Below are positions 1 to 10,201 of a stretch of 64,000 bases of DNA, one piece after another. The notes under the pieces are model-generated. The model had not been told where the DNA came from and searched no databases. It was given only the letters and a program-made list of their open reading frames with translations. This DNA comes from Saprospiraceae bacterium (GTDB lineage Bacteria > Bacteroidota > Bacteroidia > Chitinophagales > Saprospiraceae), in assembly GCA_013214355.1 (NCBI GenBank), contig JABSSL010000085.1:1-64000 (forward strand). Direction: 5' to 3'. Position 1 is the stretch's first letter. Each line of letters starts with the position of its first letter. The translations under genes were made by a program, and so were the position numbers.

Positions 1-1346
1 AAGGTGTCTGCTTCCTGATAAATCCACCACGAGAAGTAGAGGCTATCCTGGTCTGGATCAGCAGAAGCTGAGGCATCCAATGCTACAGTCTCACCCGCTT
101 TAGCTTTCAGAAAAACAATTGAATTTGAGGCATCTTCATTGATGGCAGCTACAGGATGATGGTTGGCTTCCTTGTAGGCTTTTATACACCAATCCATTCG
201 ACAAATTTGGTCATTATACATGGCTCTCCGCCATCGCCATACAGGAGAATAGTTGCTAAGGTAAACCGTATCATTCTCTGGATCCGTCCATTGATCAGGA
301 ACTTCACTGTACACATAAAAAGGAGCGACTTTTTCTTCATCTGCTTTAATATCTGCATGTCTCGACCAGAAATTCTCTGTTTTTTTCCGGCTAAATCGCC
401 CACTCCAGCCACCCCAAGAGGGCTGATTGATATCGAAGAGTCCTTTGTTAACCAGACCCATCCATGGGATCGTTCCACCGCCTTCCATGAATCCAACCAC
501 GCCTTCGCCCCAGGCATGAAATCGCCTTTCGGGATAAAGATCACCCAAGGCACCATGATTGTCCATGATGTTTTCTTTTTGCCATTGGAGCTGTCCTTCT
601 GTACTGTACGGGTAGGGTTTCCAATAATGAGGTCCCAGTCCTGCTTTTCGATCCGCCCAGCTCGGGCCACCATAAGCATAGGTTTGGTAGTTGCTACGTA
701 TCCAGTGTATGTTCGGGAACTCCCGACAGATCCAGGAACCAGCATTATCCTGAGATCCGTTTTCGAATACTCTCAGCTTTTTTACAAAAGCATCCAGCTC
801 CGCCTCAGAATGCTGCTCCCGGTAATCAAAAAGTGCTTGTGCCAGTGTATTTGAACCTGCATTTACGACCATCCAAACTGGCCGTTCATCTTCCTTTTCA
901 AGAATGCGGATGATTAGATCTGAACCCGCACTCGATTTACCCGGACCAACATCGGCAATACCATAGCCCTTTTGTCCAGCTGCCACGACCTTTCTCAGTT
1001 TTTGTGGTTCTGGATAAGTTGTAGCGTGAATTTTCAGATTGTCATATACGGCTGCATAGGCATCGATAATTTCCTGGAAGAGCTCCGGGTGGGTGACCGA
1101 ATTATACTCCCCCAGATGAGATCCTGGCCGCAAGTACTTTCCAGTAACCGCTATTAACCCCTCAATGTCAAATTCATTGGAGCAGGTGATCATATGAATC
1201 ATTTGCTGCATTTCATCGGGTTCATTGCCCATGTCAGCCAGGACTACTAGCCGCTGGCGACCGTTATGATGCCCCGGGCTAGTACGATTTTCAGCGGAAC
1301 AAGCTACAATAAGAAGTAAGAATAAGTAGTGTGTTATTCGATTCAT
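1..1346 (-). CDS. DUF1593-family secreted lipoprotein (3' end outside window)
   Basis: The frame opens at the ATG at 1346 and stays open for 448 codons to the left edge, so the C-terminus is missing. Residues 1-16 form a lipoprotein signal ending in the lipobox IVAC with Cys16, so the mature protein is probably lipid-anchored. From residue 32, RLVVLADMGNEPDE carries the D-x-x-N-x-x-D arrangement of the nucleoside-hydrolase-like fold found in DUF1593 proteins, which are often loosely labelled cellulose-binding. The visible end (HPVAAINEDASN onward) resembles the PKD-like beta-sandwich that closes this family. It lies 76 bp after the split gene at 1423-3368 in the same direction, last in the polysaccharide locus. 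The substrate is unknown; family membership is fairly secure, a glycan role is inferred from context. A shorter minus-strand frame at 182-745 is a shadow. Confidence 0.8.
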   Translation of the reverse strand, partial: MNRITHYLFLLLIVACSAENRTSPGHHNGRQRLVVLADMGNEPDEMQQMIHMITCSNEFDIEGLIAVTGKYLRPGSHLGEYNSVTHPELFQEIIDAYAAVYDNLKIHATTYPEPQKLRKVVAAGQKGYGIADVGPGKSSAGSDLIIRILEKEDERPVWMVVNAGSNTLAQALFDYREQHSEAELDAFVKKLRVFENGSQDNAGSWICREFPNIHWIRSNYQTYAYGGPSWADRKAGLGPHYWKPYPYSTEGQLQWQKENIMDNHGALGDLYPERRFHAWGEGVVGFMEGGGTIPWMGLVNKGLFDINQPSWGGWSGRFSRKKTENFWSRHADIKADEEKVAPFYVYSEVPDQWTDPENDTVYLSNYSPVWRWRRAMYNDQICRMDWCIKAYKEANHHPVAAINEDASNSIVFLKAKAGETVALDASASADPDQDSLYFSWWIYQEADT

Positions 1347-1422: not shown

Positions 1423-2586
1423 TCACAGATTTGAAACCTTTTCTAAAATCGATTGGACTTCATCCATACTCATTCCTTTAAATAAGATAAGCCTATCAAT
1501 TTGAAGCCCATGAGATCGGCCAACAATATTAAGGGTGTATTCTCCCGCTGCTGGGAATTTAGCCGTCATCCAACCATGCCCAAGATCATGGACCTCCGCT
1601 ACGCCGTGAAGGACAAAATCATCGCTGCTCCGGCTATAAAACTTCTCATAATGAGTCATTTTTTTATCCTTCACGTAGGCCACATCTCCGGAAAAGTATA
1701 GATAGGCATCATTCCCTTTGTCCGTCCCCCTTTCTCCTTCAGGTTGTCGCATCATCCACTTTACGGTATAATCCCCTGGGTCAGTAATAGTAAAAGTGTA
1801 GGAAAGATGATTGTCCATATTCACTTCCTTATAAGCATTCGGGCCATCAAAATAGATATACTTTCCTCCAGAGGCCTTTGCCTTATCCTCACCCAGTTTC
1901 CACTGACCCTTCAACTCCATTTGTTCGGCCTCGAAGACCAGTAATTTACTCCTTTCTCTTTCAGCTGAAGCTGAATCCTTAACGGCCCTGAAAGTAATAG
2001 AACGCCATCTTCCGCGGGCAAAGGCAAAAGCATCGCCTTCTGGGATTTTGCCATTAGAATGCGTGTTTGATTCTATTTGAATGACATCGCCAGTACGTAT
2101 GGGTACCTTTTCCAAGGTGTGGGTATAAGGTTGCATATCAGCAGAGGTTTCCGGGTTTTGTACTTCTCCCACCAATTTTCCATTAACCTTGATGCGATAC
2201 GTACTCTCCCCATCTTCTTCGGTCAATGAGGTAAGGATGATGTTATAATATCCACTCGCTTCTTCAAACACTTTTTTTGCAGCGGCATATTTGTCTTTAT
2301 GTATCCCGGCATTAATGGCGATGGCATTCCTGCCTTTGTCTTTATAAGGTGCGACAAAGTCATTTATTTTTTGAATTTTGAAATCCTCGATCCCTACCCA
2401 AGTTATGTCAGTCGCTTGATTTATTCCTGTCCCGATAAATGCTTGGAATTTGGCCGGACTACCATCTTCGTCACCAAGCAGCAGATAGTATAACATTCCC
2501 GCATCGGAGATATCAGCGGAATTCTTTTGGTTGACCAGCATTCGCTCGTAAATCCAAGCTACGCTTGGGTCTTTATGATCTCGCAT
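1423..2586 (-). pseudogene. C-terminal piece of a split DUF1593-like secreted protein with carbohydrate-binding tail
   Basis: This is the downstream part of a gene broken by a 47-bp tandem duplication at 2664-2757. The ATG at 2586 is an internal methionine. The real frame runs in from about 2710, and removing one repeat copy joins it to the N-terminal piece as one protein of 632 residues (1899 nt from 3368 to 1423 including stop). The first part (SADISDAGMLYYLLLGDEDG) continues a DUF1593/nucleoside-hydrolase-like domain. The middle, with NGKLVGEV and an aromatic-rich sandwich, and the end from LLVFEAEQMELKGQW look like carbohydrate-binding modules of the CBM6/malectin kind. Alone it would have no signal peptide and so should not be exported. 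Whether it is translated cannot be seen. The break could be a true mutation, a reversible tandem duplication or an assembly error. Confidence 0.7.
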
Positions 2587-2663
2587 CCAATACCAAACCG
2601 TCCAGTCGTCATGCGATTTCCAGCCTGCATTCGGATCATTTCCTGAATTCTGATCCTTTATTT

Positions 2664-2757
2664 TTTTGTATTGAAGCCGATTTCCGCTTAGAGAAATGGT
2701 TTCTTGTATATTTTGTATTGAAGCCGATTTCCGCTTAGAGAAATGGTTTCTTGTATA
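2664..2757. repeat. Exact 47-bp tandem duplication inside a coding sequence
   Basis: Positions 2664-2710 and 2711-2757 are identical over 47 bp, beginning ttttgtattgaagccg and ending ttcttgtata. Since 47 is not a multiple of three, the extra copy shifts the frame and brings in a stop at 2688-2690. Deleting one copy restores a continuous frame from 3368 to 1423. Confidence 0.95.
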
Positions 2758-3368
2758 GTATGGTGTTTATCAGCTTCGGCAACTGGAGCTTGGTCAAATT
2801 TGGGGTCCCCTCTTCTCAAATGATTGTCATTATAGCCACTATGTGAAATCACATATACATGTTCCAAGGCATCTGCTTTCCCCTCATTAACCACCCTCTC
2901 TACCACTCTATAAAAGAACTCTGCCGGGCCCATATGAATGAAATAAAGCGGATCTTCTGAAGATGACTTCTCCAGTTCCTTCGCTAAATGACTCAAGGCA
3001 GCCTCGAAGTCTGCAGAAACATCGAAAAAGCGGTCGGCATCAAAGTTCCAATGTTTAATGCCTCCCTCTACTCCAATTTTCATATGATTAGTTTCGGAGG
3101 TATGAGGTGGAGCATCTACAAAGTTATTGTAGGAAAAATGCACGAGCTGATCTTGTAGCTTTAGTTTAGCAAGGATGGCCAAGGTGGCGGGTGTGGCGCC
3201 CGAGTCATCCGGATCGGCGCGCGGCCAGAAATGGTGATTATCCGCCTGGTTATTGCCATCCGCACTAATGGCAATGCGATGGTTTTTATAGCCTAGACTT
3301 TGCGCACTTAACAAGCTGGGTAGACAGCCATAGGAGATAATAAGGAGTAATAGATGTTTAATATTCAT
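2688..3368 (-). pseudogene. N-terminal piece of the split DUF1593-like secreted protein
   Basis: The start is taken at the ATG at 3368 because it begins a clean signal peptide (MNIKHLLLLIISYGCLPSLL, then SAQ). The frame is open further up to 3518, but that stretch is polar and unlike an export signal. The mature part opens with KNHRIAISADGNNQADNHHF, with the acidic and polar residues expected at the active-site end of a nucleoside-hydrolase-like fold. It goes on through YFIHMGPAEFFYRVVE and HVYVISHSGYNDNH. After residue 219 (LQYK) the frame runs into the second repeat copy and ends early. The gene lies 155 bp after the hybrid regulator, is secreted, and is paired with another DUF1593 protein at 1-1346. 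As it stands the product lacks its binding tail and may be non-functional. Confidence 0.7.
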
Positions 3369-3523: not shown

Positions 3524-6500
3524 TTAGCTAGCATTATCTTTAACCTTACTAGCCACATATTGTGAAGGCGTTTGATTGTATACTTTTCTGAAACTTTTGG
3601 TAAAATAGCCTGGGTCATTAAATCCTACGCTGTAGCCGATTTCCGCGATGGTAAGCTGATTCTGTTCCAATAGTTGCGCGGCGCGTTTGAGCCTAACGAT
3701 GCGCATAAAATCACTAGGTGCATGTCCAGTTAGCTTTTTTAATTTTCTGAAGAAGGTGGAACGACTCGTCTTCATATCTGAGGCCAGCTCTTCCGTCCAG
3801 TAGTTTTCATCGCCCATATTTTCCTCCATAAATTCCATGGCTCTTTCTAAAAACGATTGGTCCAAGGAAGTCAGGGTGACCTTTTCAGGGGTGATTTTGG
3901 TTTCAGTTATAAATCTCTTCCGTAGGGCTTCTCTCGTCTCAATCAGCTTATCTATTCTAACGCCTAGCAGTTTCATTTTAAAGGGCTTGGGAATATAGGC
4001 ATCCGCTCCGGATTCCAGGCCTTCGATTCGATGTTCAACAGAATTTAAAGCAGTAAGCAAAATAACGGGGATGTGACTGGTCCGGATGTTGGTTTTCAGT
4101 TGGTGACAAAATTCTATGCCATCCATTTCCGGCATCAAGACATCACTGACAATTAGGTCTGGTATTTCCCGTAAGGCAGTATTCAAGCCTTCTTTCCCAT
4201 TTTCTGCTTCAAATATTTGATACTTTTTTTCAAGTCCTTTCTTGACCACATCTCTGATGTCTTTATTGTCGTCAACTACTAGTACGGATATTTTATGAAT
4301 GGCCTTTGGATCTGAAGCGGCCAAATTTTCTTCCTGAATGATAAAGGCGGCATCTAGTTCATCTTCCGTCAATATTTCTGGGGGAGAATTTTCTAATATT
4401 TCATCGGCTTGCAAGTGATTATTTCCTACGGGAATTTTAACGGTAAAGCAAGTGCCGACACCTTCTGTTGAATCTACTGCAATCGTACCATAATGTAAGT
4501 CAACCAGGTCCTTGGTGATGGCCAGGCCAATTCCGGATCCTGAATTAGCAGTGTTTTTGTCCTTATTTACCCGATAAAAGCGCTGAAATATATAGGGCAG
4601 CTGTTCTTTGGGAATTCCAGCACCGGTATCGTTTACTTCAACCTGTATATATTCGCAATGTGTTTCTCGCTCTTCAATGTATAAGGTCGGGTTTCCTTTT
4701 GGTAAGGTCACTCTAATCACCACTTGCCCTCCTTTAGCCGTAAATTTGATCGCATTAAAAATTAGATTGTTTAGCACTTTTTCAAACTTGTCCCAGTCAA
4801 TCCAAACGTCACAGGTGTACAATTGGCTTTCAAATGAGAGGTCTATATTTTTGGATCTGGCCAATGCTTTGAAGGAAAAAGTAACCTCTCGCACAAAGTT
4901 GATAATGTTCGCTTTAGCAGCAACTAACTTGGTTTCCCCAACTTCAATTTTTCTGAATTCCATGAGTTGATTCACCAAGCGCAATAGATAATTTGCGTTT
5001 CGCTCAATAACTTTTAATTGGGGACGAAATGAGATGTCTTCTTTAATCGACTCCAAAATCTCTTCCAGAGGCGTTAAGATCAAGGTGATAGGGGTCTTGA
5101 ATTCATGAGATATATTGGTGAAAAACTGAAGTTTCAATCTATTCACCTCCTTCATCTCCTTCTGAACTTTCAAGGCTGTTCGCTCTTTCGACTGTAGACG
5201 ATAATACGCCCGGATGCTCAAGAGGATACCGAATATGATTAGTGCGTAAATGAGGTATGCCCAGTTGGTCAGCCAAAAGGGAGGATGAATAATGAAATTC
5301 ATTTCCGCGGCTTGTTCGTTCCAAATGTCATCATTATTGGAAGCGATGACCTTAAACGTGTAATCACTAGGCGGCAGATTTGTGTAATGGGCAAAAGGTA
5401 AACCCTTATCAGCTTGCCATTCTTCATCAAAACCTGCTAACTGATACCTAAACTTATTTTTATTTGGGGCTGCAAAGTGGAGCGCAGCAAATTCAAAGGT
5501 TAAGGTATTTTCATGGTGTTTCAACTGGATAAGCTCCATGTGCGCAATAGCTTTATCCAGAATCACTCTATTGTTATAGGTTTTTCCAACTTTTACATCT
5601 TCATTTTTAATTTTGAACCCGATGAGTTTCACCTCCGCCGGTATGGTATTATCAACTAGATTATCCGGGTTAAAGATGTTTAGCCCCCTCAAGCCTCCAA
5701 AGAGCATATAGCCATCCGAATTTTTCAGATAGGCATTCTTTCGGTAGTTATCGCTTTGTAAACCATCTTCCTTGGTATAATTCTTAAATGATTCAGTGAC
5801 CGGATTGAAACAGGAAATACCGCTATCAGTGCTCAGCCATAGTTTCCCATTCTTGTCTTCTAGAATTCCATATACTGCATCATTGGCCAAGCCATCGATT
5901 TCCAAATAATGCTTAAAGGTTACTTCACCCGTCGAGGTTTTAGGAAATATCATTTTATTTAGTCCACCACCAAAGGTTCCAATCCAATAATCACCATTTT
6001 GGTCTTCATGGATGGAGAAAATGGAATTATGGCTAATACTATTTGGGTTGTCAGGATTGTGTTGGTAGGATATAAACTGATCCCTCTCACCATTGATTCC
6101 GGGGATGTAAAGATTGAGGCCACCTTGTAAAGTTCCTATCCAGATTTGATCTTTACTGTCTTCATAAATACAGCTAATTTCATCCCCACTCAGGCCATGA
6201 TCAATTTGATCTTTGGTCGAATAATAGACGGCCTCAGAAAAGTCAAATTCATTGCTACCTGGTTTTTTCTTCTTTTTCCACTTGATCAATCCTCCCCCGC
6301 CGATAAAGGATCCGAACCAAAGGTTGCCCTTACTATCCTCTAAGGAAGCAAACACTTCAAACATCTGCTTCTTAACTACCTGGAAGACCGCTTTTTCGGT
6401 TTTGGAATCGTATGACATATGCACGATGCCTTCTACCCCGCCTAACCAGTAATCATCATCTTTGTCTTTCAAGACCGACCTCACAGGTTGTTGAACAGGC

Positions 6501-7057
6501 AATTCAGAACGGGCTAAATCATCATCAGGGTAATAATGCCGGAATACTGGACTTTTGTAGTCTTTTCCACCGAATTGGATCTTGTTCAATCCATCTTGCG
6601 TGCCCACCCAAATTGTACTATCGTTTTCACCCTTTACGATGGCATTGATAGAGGGATTACTGAGCGTATTCTGAGAAAGGACATCCTTATAGTAAAATAG
6701 AATATCCTTTTTAGACAGATCGCATTTATTCAGACCCCCTACTTCTGTTCCCACCCATAGGACATTGGTTTTATCGATTAGAATGGATTCAATATTACCA
6801 CTGCTGAGGCCTTCTCTCTGGTAGGGATCGGGAGCATACATTTTATACTCCCCCGTTTCCGGGTTCAACCAATACAGGCCACTGCCATGAATTCCAATCC
6901 ATATATTGTCATCTTTGCCCTGGGCCATAGCGATAATACCCCCAAAATGAGGTCCGTCCGGAGCCAAGGCTTTTAGTTTGTATTCCCTGAAATTGTCTGC
7001 TGTAGCTTGTCTAAATTTGGCGGGTTCCTTTAACCTAACTAATCGGCGACCCGCCAT
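3524..7057 (-). pseudogene. Hybrid two-component sensor regulator (HTCS), main piece after a frameshift
   Basis: This piece holds nearly all of a SusR-like one-protein two-component regulator. In order from the Met at 7057 it has two-component-regulator beta-propeller repeats (many copies of D-x-x-G-x-x-W-I-G-T) to about residue 480, a Y_Y_Y domain (about 519-582), a transmembrane helix (about 598-620), a histidine kinase with FFTNISHEFKTP (His near 651), ATPase motifs NAIKFT, DTGAGIP and GSGIGLA, a receiver domain with the phospho-acceptor in VSDVLMPEMDG (Asp near 970), and an AraC domain (about 1075-1172). The Met is internal: the frame extends upstream to 7180 and belongs with the piece at 7152-7814, which is one base out of frame. 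Together they would make 1429 residues, normal for the family. The probable target is the SusC/SusD operon at 13955-18594. Confidence 0.85.
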
Positions 7058-7151: not shown

Positions 7152-7814
7152 CTAAGCCTTATGTAAACTTTTGGGGGTGGCTACCCAAATATTCCCTTCT
7201 CCGTCTTGAACAATGGAATGAATACGATTGTCATCAAGAGAATTGGCCTGTTGGGGGTTGAAAAAAAAGTGCTCCGGTTCCGTACCATCAGTATCTGTTT
7301 TTTCAAAATAGTACAAGCCGGAATGCAAGGTGCCCACCCAAATGGAGCCATCATCCGTGGGACAAATACTGGTAATACGTTTGTCGCTTAATATCTTCGG
7401 GAAGGTGTGAAAGGTCTCCGTAAGTTTGTCATATTTACCCATCCCACGACCTGTTCCAATGAGGATATTGCCTTGGGTATCTAGCTCCAATTCATAGACG
7501 GCATTATTGACCAAGCTATTTGGCTCATCAATGATGTGTTTATATAGGGTAAAGCGTTGCCCATCATATCTATATAGACCACTGGCGGTACCTATCCATA
7601 GATAACCATCATGGTCCTGGATCACCTTCATTATTGAATTTTGAGATAAACCCCTATTATCTCTGAATTTCTCAAATTTTAAGTCGGGCGCCTGAGCATA
7701 ATTTAACAACGGGCACAGCAGGAAGCATTGGGTAAAGACCAACACATTCCGAATAAGGTGAGTAGCTGAAACCTTAGACGTCAGATAACAATATGGTTGC
7801 TGCTGCTGTCGCAT
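7152..7814 (-). pseudogene. N-terminal propeller piece of the frameshifted HTCS regulator
   Basis: The first 220 residues of the hybrid sensor lie here: an export signal (hydrophobic stretch around VLVFTQCFLLCPLLNYAQA) followed by propeller repeats GYLWIGTASGLYRYDG, GSIWVGTLHSGLYYF and GNIWVATPKSLHK. It then stops at 7152 in the middle of a repeat. The rest of the propeller continues one base out of frame. The frame change must fall between 7155 and 7180, because the other frame has a stop at 7181-7183. Reading one C fewer at 7157-7158 gives TPKSLHKLRTGTK, a good propeller strand; an extra G in the run 7173-7177 is the alternative. The total from 7814 to 3524 is 4291 nt, one more than a multiple of three. 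The periplasmic propeller normally binds the inducing oligosaccharide. Confidence 0.8.
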
Positions 7815-7948: not shown

Positions 7949-10201
7949 CTATTTCGCATAAGGCCTCAGGTTGACTCTTAGCAGATAATCGTCTGCTGTG
8001 ATAAACAAATACCTACCGTCATGCGTAAACTCACAATTCCCCGTTTTTCTACCCGTGTTTATCGTTCCAATATGTTGCCCTTGTGGTGTAATGATCAAAA
8101 TTCCATCACCAGCTGCTACAAAAATATTACCAGCCTTATCCAACTTGATGCCATCAGGGTTCTGTTTGGCTGTACTTGCTGTAATGATTTCTCCGGGATC
8201 AAAAAACACGCGCTTATTTTTCACCACACCTGGTTCAATGATATCATAGGCCCAGATGATCGGCTTTGGTACGTTGGATTCGGCTACAAAAAGTGTTTTC
8301 CCGTCATGGGAAACCGTTACGCCATTTGGCCGCTTTAGCTCACCATCCACCAGTTTTAGCTCGCCGGTTTTACTCAAGAAGAAGACTCCGTTAAAGCCTA
8401 GCTCACTTTTTCCGTTTTTCCCTAATCCATAAGGGGGATCTGTGAAGTATAAGTGGCCTGCCTTGTCATAAAACAGATCATTAGGAGAGTTAAATTTCTT
8501 GCCTTGATAAGCTGACACGATGGGTTCAAACACAGGTTGCAATGAATCGCTTACACTCACCAACCTGCTAATTGCCCGATTGCCGTGTTGGCAAAGAACT
8601 AAATTGCCGTTTTCATCTAGCGCCAACCCATTGGAGCCTATACCTCCCTCCTTCGGCGCCGTACCTGTATAACCAGAAGGTGTCAAATAAGTGCTTAATC
8701 CCTCTAGATCATTCCATTTATACACTTTATTTTCTGGCACATTAGAGAAGTATAAATTCTGACCTCTGGGTTGCCAAACCGGACCTTCTGACCAATTGAA
8801 GCCCTCAGCAAGCAGATCAATCCGAGCGAATTCCGAAATGATGGAATCAAGGGCTGGATCTAGTCGTTCTATGGTTCCGGCAGTTGGGTATTTCTTCAGG
8901 GAGTCAATTATTCCTCTAAACATCACTTTTACCGACTTCACATCCTCAGCATCCACATCCAGTGGTGAAGTTTCTAAAACATCCTTTTTGATGTTGTAAA
9001 ACCGACCATCTCCATACAGCTTGTAGTTGGCGTTCATGACAAACTCCGCAGGATGAAAATGATCTTTTCCTGCTCCTGGTTTAGGATTGTAACTCATATA
9101 CACCCAATCCCTTCTAGCTTGCGTTTCTCCATTTAGTATTGGTAAAATACTTTCTCCATCCGTGTGGAACTCCTCCGGGACTTTGGCCTTGGCGACATCC
9201 AGTAAGGTGGGTAAAAAATCGATCGCGTCAATTAGCTCATCTGATTGCTGTCCTTTTTTGATATGCCCAGGCCAATTAGCCACCAAAGGCACTCTGATGC
9301 CCGCTTGGGTAGTTAAGCCTTTTCCACCTTGGATCACCTGATCCCCCATATTGGAGTATAATTTTTGGTGGGTACCGTTGTCGGAATAGAATAAAATCAG
9401 GGTTTCTTCTTCTATACCTTTGGCTTCAAGATTAGCGACAATTCTACCAATTAGCTTATCGGCATACTCGACCATGTCACCGAAATACTTGGGTTCGTTG
9501 TCCATTCTCCGTTCTTCCTCTTTCCAAATTTCACTATCCGGTGTGGGAGAAAACGGATCGTGCGTTAAGGCCATGGGATAGTAAACAAAGAAGGGTTTAT
9601 CCTTTTGCCGGTTCACAAAATCATTGAGATAGTCCACAAAAATATCGGGGCCATATTTGCCATCTGTATCCTTCAGAAATTCTCCATTCTGGAAAATGGT
9701 CGGATTGGCAAATCTGGAACCTTTATCTTCTGTATGCCCTACGTGCCAACCACAGTACTCATCAAAGCCAGCATCGCTAATTTTCATTCCCGTGTCCCGT
9801 CTGTATTCCGACCCGGGATAATGAACAGGATCATAACTTTGCAATTGCCATTTACCAACAATACAGGTACTATAACCAGCGTCTTGCATTAAATGACCAA
9901 AGGTTCTCTCTCTTGGGTCTAGAATGCCAAAGGAGGTCCAATTTCTAAAGTTGTACTTACCCGTCAACAACTTTACTCGGGTATTGGTGCAAAGCGGTTG
10001 TGCATAGGCCTGATTGAATTGTAAGCCTGTTTCTGCCAATTGATCAATATTGGGTGTGCGGTAAGATGTACCGCCGTAGCTACCAATACACTCGAAGCCC
10101 AAATCGTCGGCCATAATTAGAATGACGTTGGGTGGCTTCTGCTCAATCGTTGAAGTACAACTGAAGGTTAAGATCAATCCTAATACCACTAAATACCTCA
10201 T
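7949..10201 (-). CDS. Sulfatase fused to an SMP-30/gluconolactonase domain, lipoprotein
   Basis: The protein has 750 residues in two enzyme domains. Residues 1-15 form a lipoprotein signal with Cys15 (LTFSC). The N-terminal half is a family S1 formylglycine sulfatase: PNVILIMADDLG gives the metal-binding Asp pair (32-33), and the active-site loop at 71-75 is CTNTR, followed by LLTGKYN. The position normally held by Pro or Ala is Asn. From about residue 455 to the end is an SMP-30/gluconolactonase/LRE beta-propeller, with EGPVW, GSNGLALDENGN, FNSPNDLFYD, YFTDPPYG, RPNGVTVS and PDGIKLD as metal and active-site segments. The expected roles are release of sulfate and hydrolysis of a sugar lactone. 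It follows the hydratase gene by 31 bp and precedes the regulator. Each domain is normally a separate protein, so the fusion is unusual; no frameshift or stop separates them. Confidence 0.9.
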   Translation of the reverse strand: MRYLVVLGLILTFSCTSTIEQKPPNVILIMADDLGFECIGSYGGTSYRTPNIDQLAETGLQFNQAYAQPLCTNTRVKLLTGKYNFRNWTSFGILDPRERTFGHLMQDAGYSTCIVGKWQLQSYDPVHYPGSEYRRDTGMKISDAGFDEYCGWHVGHTEDKGSRFANPTIFQNGEFLKDTDGKYGPDIFVDYLNDFVNRQKDKPFFVYYPMALTHDPFSPTPDSEIWKEEERRMDNEPKYFGDMVEYADKLIGRIVANLEAKGIEEETLILFYSDNGTHQKLYSNMGDQVIQGGKGLTTQAGIRVPLVANWPGHIKKGQQSDELIDAIDFLPTLLDVAKAKVPEEFHTDGESILPILNGETQARRDWVYMSYNPKPGAGKDHFHPAEFVMNANYKLYGDGRFYNIKKDVLETSPLDVDAEDVKSVKVMFRGIIDSLKKYPTAGTIERLDPALDSIISEFARIDLLAEGFNWSEGPVWQPRGQNLYFSNVPENKVYKWNDLEGLSTYLTPSGYTGTAPKEGGIGSNGLALDENGNLVLCQHGNRAISRLVSVSDSLQPVFEPIVSAYQGKKFNSPNDLFYDKAGHLYFTDPPYGLGKNGKSELGFNGVFFLSKTGELKLVDGELKRPNGVTVSHDGKTLFVAESNVPKPIIWAYDIIEPGVVKNKRVFFDPGEIITASTAKQNPDGIKLDKAGNIFVAAGDGILIITPQGQHIGTINTGRKTGNCEFTHDGRYLFITADDYLLRVNLRPYAK

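Follow-up and report, generated by a model that had tools for sequence, protein, structure and literature searches.

What does an exact 47-bp tandem duplication do inside a gene of a Saprospiraceae bacterium, and is it a reversible switch, an error of assembly or a plain mutation? The duplication lies in a minus-strand gene (positions 3368-1423) of a 64,000-nt stretch, hereafter the window, which comprises positions 1-64000 of a 93,008-bp contig (C209, GenBank JABSSL010000085.1) in a genome of 11.19 Mb and 224 contigs. We consider it very probable that this is an ordinary, recent loss-of-function tandem duplication that has inactivated the gene, and not an evolved switch. The duplication and the two parts into which it divides the gene are as follows:

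2664-2710, minus strand: 47-bp unit, the copy towards the gene's 3' end (repeat search)
2711-2757, minus strand: second copy of the 47-bp unit, directly adjacent and head to tail (repeat search)
2688-3368, minus strand: N-terminal part of the gene, 226 aa, with a signal-peptide-like start, most of a predicted nucleoside-hydrolase-fold domain, a short out-of-frame tail and a stop at 2688 (open reading frame, conserved-column alignment)
1423-2766, minus strand: remainder of the gene in another frame, carrying the last stretch of the hydrolase-like domain, where the SDAGM motif lies, and C-terminal modules; the first ATG in this frame is at 2586 (open reading frame)

The two side-by-side copies are the same at 47 of 47 bases, as the original prediction had stated. 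They form the sole direct repeat of at least 25 bp in the window (search seed 16) and its sole 100% identical tandem array, the other row of the array search being an 83% identical 18-bp pair at 2624-2659. By our own estimate, made without shuffling, an exact adjacent match of this length is far beyond chance. Exact tandem duplications with a shortest unit of 13-299 bp number three (42, 47 and 48 bp) in 2,165,027 called bases of the same genome, a survey that covered the window and 120 further stretches with overlap removed, about 19% of the 11.19 Mb (an earlier pass covered 1.38 Mb). At an identity of at least 85% and a unit of at least 20 bp, the survey returned 14 rows including the 47-bp pair, some of them multiples of shorter units. 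The exact 42-bp (L126:3267-3365) and 48-bp (L133:14779-14879) tandem repeats contain TTGTTG...CAACAA inverted parts, and the stretches that hold them have open frames of at most 111 codons.

The broken gene spans 1946 nt, and removal of 47 nt leaves 1899 nt or 633 codons, exactly the one-copy length that had been predicted. Forty-seven extra bases do not make a whole number of codons; the reading frame therefore meets an early stop at 2688 and translation would end after 226 codons, within the catalytic-type domain. From 2766 the second part has an open frame down to its stop at 1423, and both frames are open over the 79-nt zone 2766-2688, in line with the earlier description of a frame open before and after the duplication. 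Truncation would remove the last part of the nucleoside-hydrolase-fold domain, and five of the 15 invariant residues fall behind the break (Q211, D258, S260, D261 and G263 in the numbering of L145, a relative from Zobellia). Judging from nucleoside-hydrolase chemistry, the removed residues may include metal ligands. The gene product is probably secreted, with a signal-peptide-like leader that was judged without a predictor, and the earlier claim that an otherwise sound gene with such a start is broken by the duplication is supported to that extent. At E <= 0.001 the same genome yielded no intact paralogue of the domain: searched with the first piece, it returns that piece only, and searched with an intact relative, the two window pieces only. 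The C-terminal modules have two weak matches in the same genome (C15, C141). Loss of function in the cell is the outcome predicted from these sequences.

The relatives of the gene carry one copy of the unit. An uninterrupted, full-length homologue of 619 aa (L136, in genome G238) aligns with the two window pieces at 67% and 59% identity, and a genome of the same genus (G002) holds a 287-aa homologue that consists of the catalytic-type domain alone (L003); both read through the junction position without a second copy. A wider set of 79 loci was obtained by a domain-alignment search of genome contigs, in which the best 80 of at least 143 confirmed relatives were kept; among these loci, L170 is the same DNA as L003, which lies reversed inside it. 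A length of 287 aa is common in this set. In none of the 79 loci does a stop interrupt the match, and none shows an exact tandem duplication (unit 20-199 bp) there or in the flanks, although these loci belong to other species and have little bearing on variation within a strain. One copy is likely the ancestral state. The family is sparse, with L003 matched in 5 of 296 genomes of the phylum, and the first and second window pieces in 3 and 6 of 60 relatives, respectively (own genome included in each count). A first contig search with the C-terminal part found no relative. In G238, a second relative of the broken gene (C15:108921-109465, L142-L144) lies in several pieces with stops and is another decayed copy, so the window is not the only site of decay in this family.

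The original prediction read the identity of the copies as proof of a very recent event. Zero differences in 47 bp place the divergence of the copies below about 6% (rule of three), which is a weak bound, and identity does not serve as that proof. The recency itself stands on other grounds: the damage looks recent because the window pieces retain every one of the 27 alignment columns that 90% or more of 56 relatives share. Of these columns, 17 fall in the first piece and 10 in the other (23 of the 79 loci were left out of the alignment to reduce redundancy). Conservation at the level of residues is the better argument for recency than the identity of the copies.

We infer that the 47-bp duplication arose spontaneously and recently inside the gene, by replication slippage or template switching. 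The frame break would end translation within the catalytic-type domain and inactivate the gene. Loss of one copy could restore the frame, which would be the reversion of a mutation and not the action of an evolved switch. An origin driven by microhomology was rejected: 0 bp are shared at the junction, and 12 of 30 bases match around the two breakpoints (a count made without a shuffle control). A comparable case of spontaneous, loss-of-function duplication is lrp of Xenorhabdus nematophila, where three of 25 distinct mutations are tandem duplications of 26-116 bp (PMC6786866). There too a single direct duplication of tens of bases lies in the coding sequence and is expected to destroy the protein, whereas the case in the window comes from one assembly and has no known phenotype.

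What kind of protein has been lost? The original prediction called the gene DUF1593-like, which fits its fold and not its sequence family. The first piece draws no Pfam match (E up to 1), and those of the second all fall below the cut-off; a match to PF07632 (the former DUF1593) was found neither for the window pieces (E up to 1) nor for L003 (E up to 0.1), L145, L139, L015 and L154 (E up to 1). A sequence search of the PDB gave nothing meaningful (best E 0.39). The structural matches rest on an AlphaFold2 model of the Zobellia relative L145 (mean predicted local distance difference test score, pLDDT, 91.3), the window protein itself not having been folded. The best match of this model is the nucleoside hydrolase 1mas (Z 15.5, root-mean-square deviation (rmsd) 3.2 over 205 residues), and Sde182 (2yhg) follows at Z 14.2 and rmsd 3.3 over 209 residues. 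The top Foldseek match, 4i72 (E 2.1e-5), indicates the same family with a modest template modelling (TM) score of 0.44. The domain of the broken gene is thus predicted to have a nucleoside-hydrolase fold. To judge by the model of its relative, this fold is common to the Sde182/DUF1593 proteins (PF07632; 2yhg), but the broken gene differs from them in having no PF07632 match, and the true member is the adjacent gene at 3-1346. Members of the family of the broken gene (L145-L223, L136 and L003) have no Pfam match above the cut-off where tested. Some consist of the domain by itself, at about 290 aa, and others lie in open frames that reach 1,192 aa; the hosts include many marine genera and also Phocaeicola plebeius (L210).

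The broken gene is flanked by the following genes:

3-1346, minus strand: Sde182 nucleoside-hydrolase-like gene with PF07632 and the start of PF21027, cut by the contig start (Pfam)
3524-7057, minus strand: C-terminal piece of a hybrid two-component regulator, 1,177 aa, with Reg_prop, Y_Y_Y, HisKA, HATPase, receiver and AraC-type helix-turn-helix domains (Pfam)
7152-7814, minus strand: N-terminal piece of the same regulator, 220 aa, in another frame (open reading frame, Pfam)

The regulator is also broken, and the shift between its two frames seems to fall in a short C/A run, which we place near 7169-7177. Several of its homologues are open over about 1,380-1,450 aa (e.g. 1,453, 1,438 and 1,403 aa, among the matches listed); the listed matches are 25-41% identical and of unproven orthology, and several are themselves in short open frames. 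In the same genome, one other regulator match (C186) also sits in an open frame of just 244 aa and one (C203) contains an in-frame stop, and breaks of this type are not confined to the cluster around the duplication. The surroundings include two sulfatases, SusD-like and TonB-receptor-like genes and sugar-acid-type enzymes, some of them named from the translation alone, and the locus may be a carbohydrate-utilisation cluster. A single protein at 7949-10201 joins a sulfatase and an SMP-30/gluconolactonase domain. At 1e-10, tblastn matched neither the PF07632 protein of the window nor the regulator piece nor the sulfatase to the flanks fetched for L145-L176, which are 32 of the 79 loci, so the gene neighbourhood is not conserved there.

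If two contig ends that share 47 bp had been joined with the overlap uncollapsed, the true genome would hold one copy, and such an assembly artefact would agree with the good conservation of the gene otherwise and with the single copy of its relatives. Assembler k-mer sizes are usually odd, as 47 is. The fetched contig ends, however, include 22 end pairs with shared words, of which 10 diverge at 126-127 bp and 12 range over 25-129 bp (rows of all-N contigs are left out of the count), a pattern suggestive of a de Bruijn k near 127. At that size one k-mer spans the whole 94-bp block and a 47-bp leftover is unexpected; the site also contains no N, and no second 47-bp duplication was found among the 2,165,027 called bases. 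Overlaps near 127, together with the rarity of exact tandem duplications, indicate that the duplication is probably real, that is, present in the organism and not merely in its assembly. The artefact that had been offered as an alternative is unlikely, neither the contig-end overlaps nor the 2.17-Mb survey pointing to 47. Ribosomal frameshifting in the 79-nt zone 2766-2688, which would yield some full-length protein with an insertion, has next to nothing to recommend it: the two frames do overlap there, but such an overlap is expected from most duplications of a similar kind, and the 79 related loci never show the duplication.

A phase-variable switch, in which the copy number shifts back and forth and turns the gene on and off, was the use first proposed for the duplication. 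Slippage or RecA-independent recombination can remove a copy from tandem repeats of such a length, and the collapse half of the proposal is plausible. Its other half, re-formation, would presumably be a fresh and rare event: neither an array nor flanking homology that would allow it was found, there being two copies only, and with 0 bp shared at the junction a renewed duplication after collapse is not favoured. The switch is further opposed by the 0 of 79 relatives with an exact tandem duplication, for all that other species tell little of variation within a strain, and by the break in the adjoining regulator, as two adjacent lesions fit decay better than regulation. We regard the switch as very improbable on these grounds. 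A bacterial switch built from one short duplication was not found in the literature searched, which says little, some searches having come back empty. The nearest parallel is SARM in Staphylococcus aureus, where genes are reversibly silenced, mostly by one-base deletions in poly(A) tracts, and reversion was measured (PMC6819657). Both there and in the window, an otherwise sound gene is frameshifted and revertible in principle; the window gene differs in having a 47-bp duplication, whereas the text of that paper does not contain the word 'duplication', and in having no reversion data. We see only a very slim chance that the duplication is kept in the population as a one-way bookmark, in which the gene, silent for as long as it is not needed, would be restored in rare cells by loss of a copy, with a second reversible frameshift in the C/A run of the regulator; if true, the whole carbohydrate cluster would be held in a recoverable off state.

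Some points weigh against recent gene loss as the explanation. That the cell carries two copies and has lost the activity is predicted from a single assembly. The gene looks intact apart from the duplication, so the two-copy allele might exist in a minority only, have arisen in culture, or be an error; the frame change in the regulator could likewise be a sequencing error. The 79 loci were found through conserved motifs, so broken copies would be under-represented among them. The match row of the G002 homologue carries four stops and extends beyond the stop of the 287-aa frame, so the downstream DNA there may be a remnant.

Recent inactivation of the gene by an ordinary tandem duplication is the reading that we prefer, and it calls for caution with automatic annotation, which likely yields two unrelated-looking proteins from this one broken gene. 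The nucleoside-hydrolase-fold family to which the gene belongs, lacking a Pfam match above the cut-off in the members tested, may deserve a model of its own. The locus would also be a clean example of fresh gene loss, seen before other conserved positions have changed and next to a broken regulator.
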